This document shows, piece after piece, positions 3,233-64,000 of a stretch of 64,000 nt of DNA (its first letter is position 1; each line of letters opens with the position of its first letter). The notes beneath the pieces are model-generated. The model did not search any database. It was not told where the DNA came from and saw only the letters and a list, made by a program, of their open reading frames with translations. A program made the translations under genes and the position numbers. The DNA is taken from assembly GCA_016219275.1 (NCBI GenBank), contig JACRBM010000056.1, positions 62,001 through 126,000 on the forward strand, written 5' to 3'. Origin of the DNA: Chloroflexota bacterium. GTDB lineage: Bacteria; Chloroflexota; Anaerolineae; UBA4142.

Positions 3233-3437
3233 ACCTCTCGCCAAAACGCAAAGCACGCAAAGAATCATCCTGAAAAAACTTGGCGTTCTTGGCGGCTTGG
3301 CGAGAGAGGTCTTATTCCCTATAATGTCTTTTGTTTCATAGTTGGATAGTTTAGGTAGTTGTGTAGTTGGATAGTTTAGGTAGTTGTGTAGTTGGATAGT
3401 TTCCGTTATCTAACTACGCAACTACCTAACTATCTAA
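3233..3437. repeat. Two repeat clusters between permease genes (decamer-like and octamer-like)
   Basis: 3233-3313 carries an inverted pair: a CTCTCGCCAAAACGCAAAG arm, then a CTTGGCGTTCTTGGCGG arm ending CGAGAGAGGT. 3341-3437 has GTAGTTGGATAGTTTAGGTA repeated nearly perfectly about 2.5 times, then the opposite strand sense (ACTACGCAACTACCTAACT). Both would form long RNA hairpins within the transporter operon. This fills the 225-bp gap; no gene is seen. Confidence 0.8.
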
Positions 3438-61863: not shown

Positions 61864-61921
61864 TGTGGGACAAGTTTCCAACTTGTCCACCCAATGATAA
61901 AGCAAATTGGAAATTTGCTTT
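61864..61921. repeat. Two inverted repeats between trpE and trpG
   Basis: GGGACAAGTTTCCAACTTGT is a self-complementary stem; AAAGCAAATTGGAAATTTGC is a second one right at the trpE stop. Both would form hairpins in the operon RNA. Confidence 0.75.
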
Positions 61922-63401
61922 ACGATTCCGCGATTTCGATGGCACGCGTGAGCGCGCGCGCCTTGTTTTCACATTCGCGATGCTCGCCGAGCGGATCGGA
62001 ATCCGCGACGATGCCAGCGCCGGCTTGGACGAACGCGTGCTTGCCGCGCTGAACGATGGTGCGAATCGTGATGCAAAAATCCATATTGCTCTTGCCCGCA
62101 ACCGGAAAACCGAAATAACCAACCGCCCCGGCGTACGGTCCGCGTCGTGTCCCTTCAAGGTCTTCGATGATTTCCATCGCGCGAACCTTGGGCGCGCCCG
62201 AAACCGTCCCCGCCGGGAAGGTCGCACGAAGCAGATCGAACGCGCTGAACTCGCGGCGCAACTTGCCGACGACGCGCGAGACGATGTGCATCACGTGCGA
62301 GAATCGCTCGACGGTCATGTACTGCGGAACCTGCACCGAGCCGTACTCGCACACGCGACCCAGGTCGTTGCGACCCAGGTCTACCAACATCACGTGCTCG
62401 GCGCGTTCCTTGGGATCGTTGCACAACTCAGTTTCGAGCCGCGCGTCCTCGGCTTCGTCCTTGCCGCGGCGACGTGTGCCCGCAATCGGATTCAGTTGCG
62501 CGATATCGTCTTCGAGCCGCACGAGCACTTCGGGCGACGACCCGATGAATTGCAGATCGCGGAAATCGAGCAAGAACATGTACGGCGATGGATTCAATCG
62601 GCGCAGGGCGCGATAAATCGAAAACGCGTCCGCTTCAGTTTCGCGCGAAAAACGTTGCGACAAGACAACCTGGAAAATATCGCCCGCCGCGATGTGTTCT
62701 TGCGCGCGGCGCACCATCGCGGCGAATTGGTCGGGTGTGACGTTCGATTGCAACGCGTGTCCATTGGGCGCGGGCGCAGTATCCGATGTTGGAACCGGGC
62801 GATTCAACCGCGCGACGATATTCTCGATACGCGCGACGGCGTCGTCGTACGCGGCGCGCGCGCTCCCGCGCTCCGCGACATGCGCGTTCGCGATGACGAG
62901 CGTACGATGCTTGACCTGATCGAACGCGATGAGCGTGTCGGTCAGCAAGAAAATCGCGTCCGGCAGATCGAGTTCATCGCGCGCGGTGCGCGGCAAGCGT
63001 TCGATGTAGCGCACGATGTCGTACGACAGGAATCCGACCGCGCCGCCGAAAAAGCGCGGTAGACCTGGGATTGTGACCGCGTGATACGGCGCGAGAAAAT
63101 CGCGCAACGCGTTCAGCGGGTCGTCGGCATCGAACGTCGTTTCCGCGCGCGTGTGATCGCGCAGCGTGACGCGCCCCTCGCGTACGGTGATGACGCGCGA
63201 CGGATTGACGCCGATGAACGAATAGCGCGCCAGTTGTTCGCCACCCTCGACCGATTCGAGCAAGAACGAGGCGTACTCATCGCGTAGTTTAAGGTAGACC
63301 GACACGGGTGTTTCCATGTCCGCGTTGAGTTCGCGATAAACCGGGATGAGATTGCCCTGGCTGGCGAGCGATTCGAATTCGCTAAAGCTGGGATATGTCA
63401 T
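61920..63401 (-). CDS. trpE: Anthranilate synthase component I
   Basis: 493 aa; ATG 63401 is preceded by AAGGAGG. N-terminal allosteric segment [20 protein letters not shown] (LLES Trp-feedback motif, about residues 45-64). Chorismate-binding core: [52 protein letters not shown] and the final [21 protein letters not shown]. First gene of a full trpEGDCFBA operon controlled by the T-box leader. Confidence 0.97.
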
Positions 63402-63424: not shown

Positions 63425-63606
63425 AAAAATAAAAACCTCTCGTCCGTTGCGCGTATAGATACGCAACAAGGGACGAGAGGTTGCTTGGCTCCCGTGGTGC
63501 CACCCTGATCGAGACTGGCGAGACATTGAGTTGTATGTCTCGATAAAATAAAACGTGCGTTTCGTGATGAAACGAAACGCACGAGCCAGTCTCACTCTGT
63601 GGAAAC
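63425..63606 (-). promoter_or_regulatory. T-box riboswitch leader of the trp operon
   Basis: In the minus-strand RNA: an outer stem (AGACTGGC pairs with GCCAGTCT) encloses two hairpins (CGTGCGTTTCG/CGAAACGCACG and CGAGAC/GTCTCG); then the T-box motif AGGGTGGCACCACGG (63492-63506); then CGTCCCT and a long terminator stem (63434-63482) followed by U-rich sequence. T-boxes sense uncharged tRNA and prevent termination; tRNA-Trp is inferred from the operon. The stem I region is short and branched, and I could not identify a UGG specifier with certainty. Confidence 0.8.
63434..63482 (-). terminator. T-box-controlled terminator
   Basis: AACCTCTCGTCC, an inner GTTGCG/CGCAAC stem, GGACGAGAGGTTTTTA in the minus-strand sense. 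It competes with the antiterminator formed by the T-box motif and the CGTCCCT segment. Confidence 0.8.
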
Positions 63607-63609
63607 GCA

Positions 63610-63706
63610 TTTAGAAGTTGGAGGTTAGAAGTTGGAGGTCGGGACTTGGATTCTCGATGTTTCAATCCAATTTCCAAACTCCAACTTCTAATCTCTAATT
63701 TCTAAA
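63610..63706. repeat. Heptamer repeat upstream of the trp T-box
   Basis: GTTAGAA/GTTGGAG/GTTAGAA/GTTGGAG units, then the opposite sense CCAATTT/CCAAACT/CCAACTT/CTAATCT/CTAATTT. Lies at the 5' edge of the leader. Confidence 0.85.
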
Positions 63707-63707
63707 A

Positions 63708-63917
63708 TCAATTTCCTCTGCCACGATAACGGGGGCGATTTCCGTCCACGCATACTGGGCGTTTGCCGTTCAGCGGGAGACTCATCGGTCCATTCGCCGT
63801 TTTCGGAAATATCAATCTCACACCAACTCGATTGACTCTCTGAATTTCGTCTGACGAGTACTCGTCCGAATCATTGTCTTTCAGTGGCAAACATATACCA
63901 CAAAAAAACGCGGCTGT
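63708..63917 (-). CDS. Possible small protein of unknown function
   Basis: An open frame of up to 70 codons (no good ATG at its beginning; a TTG overlaps the upstream gene stop by 4 bp). Composition is mixed (KDNDSDEYSSDEIQRVNRVG, then PLNGKRPVCVDGNRPRYRGR) and does not match a family I know. Kept because its overlap with the upstream stop resembles a coupled gene; it could equally be non-coding leader. Confidence 0.3.
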   Translation of the reverse strand, partial: TAAFFCGICLPLKDNDSDEYSSDEIQRVNRVGVRLIFPKTANGPMSLPLNGKRPVCVDGNRPRYRGRGN

Positions 63918-64000
63918 CAATTCGCGCGCGCGCGATATTGCCGCAACACGTCAAAGCCGACGAGCCGTTGTGCTTGCTCGTCCCACAAATGCAGATGTAC
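63917..64000 (-). CDS. C-terminal end of an unidentified protein (5' end outside window)
   Basis: An open minus-strand frame enters at the window edge and stops at TGA 63917-63919. The 27 visible residues (HLHLWDEQAQRLVGFDVLRQ, ending YRARAN) look like folded protein sequence rather than chance, but are too few to assign. Confidence 0.45.
   Translation of the reverse strand, partial: VHLHLWDEQAQRLVGFDVLRQYRARAN

Follow-up and report, generated by a model that had tools for sequence, protein, structure and literature searches.

The leader of trpE in the window (the whole 64,000-nucleotide stretch of Chloroflexota DNA analysed here, in whose numbering all positions are given) aligns as a full-length tRNA-sensing T-box, and its stem III encloses an additional hairpin, T1, that has the form of an intrinsic terminator and is a candidate upstream stop or pause point. 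Judged from sequence comparison, T1 is a feature of the Trp T-boxes of the Anaerolineae.

In a search of the last kilobase of the window the T-box model RF00230 aligned end to end, over the whole model, with positions 63883-63466 of the minus strand (80.8 bits, E 1.1e-17), and the first gene after the leader was identified as trpE (61920-63401, minus strand; TIGR00564, 582.5 bits). An earlier description made from the letters alone (the sequence-only reading) had placed a T-box leader before trpE, rightly so. Rfam at its gathering threshold gave no match anywhere in the window (the cut-off being 93 bits), probably owing to the long insert described below. As 7 of the 11 T-box matches in the source genome likewise score under it, the gathering threshold is a threshold for detection rather than a defining trait of a T-box.

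All parts of the leader lie on the minus strand. The alignment put stem I (63780-63883), stem II (63746-63777, with the GAA/AGUA S-turn sequences) and the stem IIA/B region (63727-63744, ending in CCCCGUUA) at 63883-63727, i.e. upstream of the stretch 63425-63606 to which the leader had been assigned and beyond a heptamer repeat that is an insertion relative to the model. The specifier, UGG at 63792-63790 within GAA-UGG-ACC, fits Trp as the regulated amino acid and trpE as the gene. The sole tRNA-Trp located (30 of the 36 tRNA matches of the genome were scanned) has the anticodon CCA and the 3' end GCCA, which fits both the specifier and the UGGC bulge at 63502-63499 of the T-box core AGGGUGGCACCACGGG (63506-63491). 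Antiterminator and main terminator (T2) are mutually exclusive by sequence and fold over 63480-63425: the T2 hairpin (63480-63436) is followed by a U-tract that runs to 63425, and its 5' arm doubles as the antiterminator partner (CUCGUCCC). T-box motif, partner and terminator had all been recognised correctly from the letters. A tandem T-box was rejected, there being a single T-box match and no second complete element upstream of trpE. By its sequence the leader is a T-box riboswitch, with a predicted response of expression to uncharged tRNA. Upstream of stem I we read by eye a promoter-like TTGACA-17-TATATG sequence (63892-63920), which is absent from the scan listing; the scan accepted a second hexamer only if it ended in T.

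The outer stem with two hairpins that the sequence-only reading had noticed upstream of the T-box is real: 63500-63605 folds at -49.8 kcal/mol, and none of 200 shuffles was as stable (z -9.5). It had been taken for the whole upstream part of a compact T-box, a branched stem I in which no specifier was evident. The fold of 63600-63510 is as was described then, but we give the compact form hardly any weight and reject it on the RF00230 alignment: the covariance-model search suggested at the time located a canonical stem I with a UGG specifier further upstream, the outcome that had been named as contradicting it, and the same fold is stem III in the trpB-like and trpS leaders of the source genome and in relatives. 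The suspicion that the leader is a structural variant was sound, except that the variation lies in stem III, as a conserved terminator-like hairpin, and not in stem I. Fold, terminator scan and comparison of modules give the following order for stem III: the purine string GAGUG (63593-63597), corresponding to the RRRxG motif that precedes stem III according to the available text of PMC7583486; the outer 5' strand AGACUGGC (63585-63592), which holds a conserved CUGG; T1 (63583-63554; 12 bp, 7 of them G-C); its U-tract UUUUAUUUU (63545-63553); a second small, lineage-variable hairpin (63520-63541) that differs or is absent in relatives; and the outer 3' strand GCCAGUCU (63512-63519). Compared with the class I T-box of RF00230 (stems I, II, IIA/B and III) the leader thus has the same stems, UGG specifier, bulge, antiterminator and terminator, and adds the terminator-like hairpin with its U-tract and a 97-nt palindromic repeat in the linker.

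The linker forms a hairpin (63601-63716) with the base GGAAA/UUUCC, equivalents of which were read in relatives, and the repeat is its apical part, a palindromic array of degenerate heptamers (63610-63706). The mirrored heptamer tract mentioned in the sequence-only reading indeed exists, its arms at 63610-63652 and 63664-63706 being 84% complementary. It is a dispersed genomic repeat, with 54 matches in the source genome to a 107-base query, including itself and its own reverse complement. Three of the 11 T-boxes of the genome hold it in the same place, those of trpE, trpB-like and trpS, and since these three leaders are plainly paralogous, shared descent explains why they have it in common. 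The corresponding hairpin of relatives is short or contains other palindromes or none, and the repeat is probably tolerated rather than needed; a preferred or functional role in the T-box was set aside because the three carriers are paralogues and relatives differ at the site. The window contains seven long palindromes, several of which are similar arrays of 7- or 8-mers; degenerate palindromes with units of 7 or 8 bases recur with centres at window positions 3406, 19910, 31081, 32607 and 63658. Such arrays were also seen within stem III of three other T-boxes of the source genome (L002, L004 and L005). The Trp leader of genome G013 (L116, 1-447) is a Trp T-box that lacks both stem III and the T-box core; its sequence switches right where the palindromic array ends, which would fit recombination or misassembly at the repeat. 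A T-box that is read from the antiterminator outwards can have its stem III confused with stem I if repeats split its halves.

T1 has the sequence make-up of an intrinsic (Rho-independent) terminator, a stable hairpin directly followed by a U-tract, and is present in all three Trp T-boxes found in the source genome (trpE, trpB-like and trpS). Among related genomes a fixed detector found it in 17 of 18 Trp T-boxes versus none of 81 for other amino acids, after 9 of 108 loci without a parsable core had been dropped, the Trp T-boxes of relatives having been fetched by specifier pattern and those for other amino acids taken from RF00230 matches (19 genomes). An initial parse was narrower but also took in Trp leaders from farther afield; with 53 of 141 loci unparsed, it gave T1 in 26 of 40 Trp and 1 of 48 other leaders (5/800 and 1/960, respectively, in shuffled sequences). 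The 14 Trp leaders without T1 in that parse were L082-L094 (13 finds by specifier pattern) and L106; its sole non-Trp call (L196) is probably a misplaced main terminator and was gone in the wider parse. The energies of T1 range from -12.6 to -18.2 kcal/mol, and in 26 out of 26 cases the 8 nt that follow contain 5-7 U; its stems are weaker than the main terminator.

The stem of T1 covaries. In an alignment of 24 sequences 95.7% of the stem cells are paired and 6 of 10 pairs change on both sides (34 such cells versus a shuffled mean of 8.5), and in an alignment of 50 sequences this holds for 9 of 10 pairs (83 cells versus a shuffled mean of 19.9); none of 500 shuffles was as high in either case, where the larger alignment was fitted to the model and the smaller one was unfitted but made of members that had been chosen because they contain T1. 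Pairing of the outer stem of stem III was seen in 36 of the 50 sequences; 2000 partner shuffles gave 20.3 on average and 27 at most. Judged by its Trp-limited presence, its covarying stem and its recurrence across the class, T1 is no accident.

We also searched for the module beyond the relatives. An exact-pattern scan of 84,980 species genomes yielded 27 stretches, 18 of which have a T-box core 13-122 nt downstream and come, without exception, from records labelled Chloroflexi, Anaerolineales, Anaerolineae, Anaerolinea, Caldilineaceae or Candidatus Aquidulcis; no T-box core was found downstream of the other nine, which carry other labels. Model R1, made without the trpE leader of the window and without L145 (stems out of register in alignment A1), recovered both and, at E <= 0.001, had matches in 23 of 400 phylum genomes. 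A core lies within 52-163 nt in 55 of the 57 modules examined, the other two being L241, with a variant core, and L245, with none. The core of the L241 Trp leader is GGGUUGGCACCACGG, one U above the usual. L245, with no T-box nearby and likely a chance match, was left out of alignment A4, as were the copies or near-copies of included entries (L209, L210, L212, L213, L216, L219 and L248). At E <= 0.01 model R2 had matches in 168 of 298 class genomes, a count that includes those used for training. From 96 of the weaker R2 matches listed, 39 sites were taken by fixed steps, and 38 of these have a T-box core (in two, L329 and L348, the regular expression matched within stem I and the true core was read by eye). 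The UGG specifier was likewise found in 38 of the 39, one specifier lying past the contig end.

The exception among the 39 sampled sites (L338) led to a family of the Anaerolineae (f55) in which trpS leaders of three genera (L351, L353 and L354) have T1 and a GUGANNCUGGC motif and, in the next 320 nt, no T-box-like motif, antiterminator or second terminator-like site. In all three trpS follows T1, with the frame open from 12 nt (L354), 106 nt (L353) and 138 nt (L351) past the hairpin. In L351 and L353 the part from stem I to IIA/B is recognised by RF00230 (67.9 and 57.3 bits, respectively), and of the 31 model pairs in this part 27 are standard in the two leaders alike, three of these being changed on both sides; stem I of L354 is not recognised by Rfam and this leader looks degraded. 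The T1-only leaders retain UGGC. In L351 a remnant like the start of an L354-type trpS lies between T1 and the intact trpS. The order that holds these leaders has matches at E <= 0.001 in 9 of 56 genomes, and the leaders themselves come from three drafts, fragmented genomes of a single family. Their sequences would suit either riboswitches with T1 as the sole platform or relics whose decay is yet to come.

On balance we favour the reading that T1 is an upstream stop or pause point, so that Trp leaders would get two successive chances to stop transcription. RNA polymerase would reach T1 after stem I and stem II have been made and before the T-box sequence exists; part of the complexes would terminate or stall there, and the delay would leave a tRNA longer to bind stem I ahead of the main choice between antiterminator and terminator. 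We infer from this arrangement that T1 may act in termination or pausing in vivo and that tRNA may influence it. In the glyQS T-box, stem III was proposed to be a transcription stalling site, for which the available part of PMC6197855 quotes a pause of 30-60 s with NusG, and T1 could be a hardened form of such a stop. The two are alike in that the polymerase is proposed to stop at stem III, when the T-box sequence has yet to be transcribed; unlike what the same text gives for glyQS, T1 is shaped like an intrinsic terminator, occurs in Trp leaders alone among the compared genomes and is conserved across a class, and its pause is a prediction. Trp operons in Bacillota have tandem T-boxes (PMC12452182, accessible part) and extra stringency for Trp therefore has precedent. 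Those leaders likewise have more than one stop point, but by that account through two complete T-boxes, whereas the T1 leaders combine one sensor with two terminator-like hairpins. Several points weigh against a stop or pause at T1: the 14 Trp leaders that lack it, its stems being weaker than the main terminator, the low share of matches in the order of the T1-only leaders, the origin of these leaders in a single family, one of them with a stem I that escapes Rfam, and the loop sequence and missing antiterminator strand described below.

The sequence AGUGA-NN-CUGG before T1 is near-invariant. CUGG is found in 87 of 87 modules, a figure inflated by selection with the model, and in all 18 Trp T-boxes that were selected independently of the model versus none of 81 others; the apical loop has UCA in 72 of 86 modules, which is beyond the need of a plain terminator (for these counts the start filter removed 4 of 91 aligned rows). 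These CUGG counts speak for T1 being a second platform under tRNA control, where uncharged tRNA-Trp on stem I would pair its 3' GCCA with UGGC and hinder T1 and charged tRNA could not, and so do the architecture of stem III, whose outer stem, 5' UGGN and inner hairpin are arranged much as in the antiterminator, and the T1-only leaders, which keep UGGC and in two cases stem I to IIA/B and would then be T-box riboswitches without a T-box. Folding, however, does not support a free UGGN at T1, its mean unpaired probability being just 0.29 in RNA that ends at T1, UGGC pairs with the outer-stem 3' strand in several leaders, and no route is visible from NCCA pairing to the loss of T1; we consider a tRNA-controlled platform unlikely. 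In its fullest form, to which we also assign a low, if very slightly higher, probability, the CUGG-T1 module would be an independent tRNA-Trp-responsive terminator, the same tRNA being read twice per polymerase pass, and would have taken over altogether in the trpS leaders of f55. Reading by eye, we found no conserved strand upstream of T1 that might serve as its antiterminator. The linker sequence UGCGUUUC (63609-63602) recurs within the T1 5' arm (63574-63581) and could compete for the 3' arm, but as relatives have, by eye, no such exact match, this pairing was rejected as an antiterminator.

The terminator-like sequence and the lack of a visible conserved antiterminator would also suit a constitutive attenuator, a 5' brake that lowers trp and trpS expression without sensing tRNA and that could act alone in the T1-only leaders. 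We find such a brake doubtful, in view of the limitation of T1 to Trp leaders among the compared genomes, the conservation of its loop and of the upstream CUGG, and the retention in L351 and L353 of a stem I that a tRNA-blind brake does not need. Alternatively, T1 may be a rigid structural arm of stem III with its U-tract as a spacer, causing neither stop nor pause; stem III is part of the discriminator that senses aminoacylation and varies in length in known T-boxes, according to the available text of PMC7583486. Yet all 50 modules keep the U-tract (5-8 U among the 9 nt that follow the last G-C pair) while the flanks vary, and with a mean of only 1.6 A in the 8 nt before the stem, the tract is more than the 3' side of a longer stem. 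T1 is moreover still present in leaders that have lost the remaining discriminator, and we regard the rigid arm as improbable, the least favoured of these functional readings. The upstream stop or pause point stays our preferred reading.

Trp T-boxes of Chloroflexi were described for trpE and trpB-like in Dehalococcoides (PMC2494555), i.e. for the same phylum and the same kinds of target; unlike for the T1 leaders, the accessible text mentions no extra hairpin there. In the literature covered, which includes the available parts of PMC7583486, PMC2494555, PMC7778990, PMC12452182, PMC6197855 and PMC9382623 and has most subscription papers outside its scope, we found no report of a terminator-like hairpin in stem III of a T-box. 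It is an old question why T-boxes have a stem III and whether a polymerase stop there buys time for tRNA binding, and a conserved, Trp-restricted stem III in terminator form, together with natural T1-only leaders, makes this question testable.

Two other observations were made on the side. In L006 (1414-1707) a T-box leader follows closely on the end of a tRNA-Val gene (GAC) of the same strand, and downstream of trpS a sub-threshold match to the c-di-GMP-II riboswitch was found (L040, 3177-3263; 49.5 bits versus a cut-off of 53.5).
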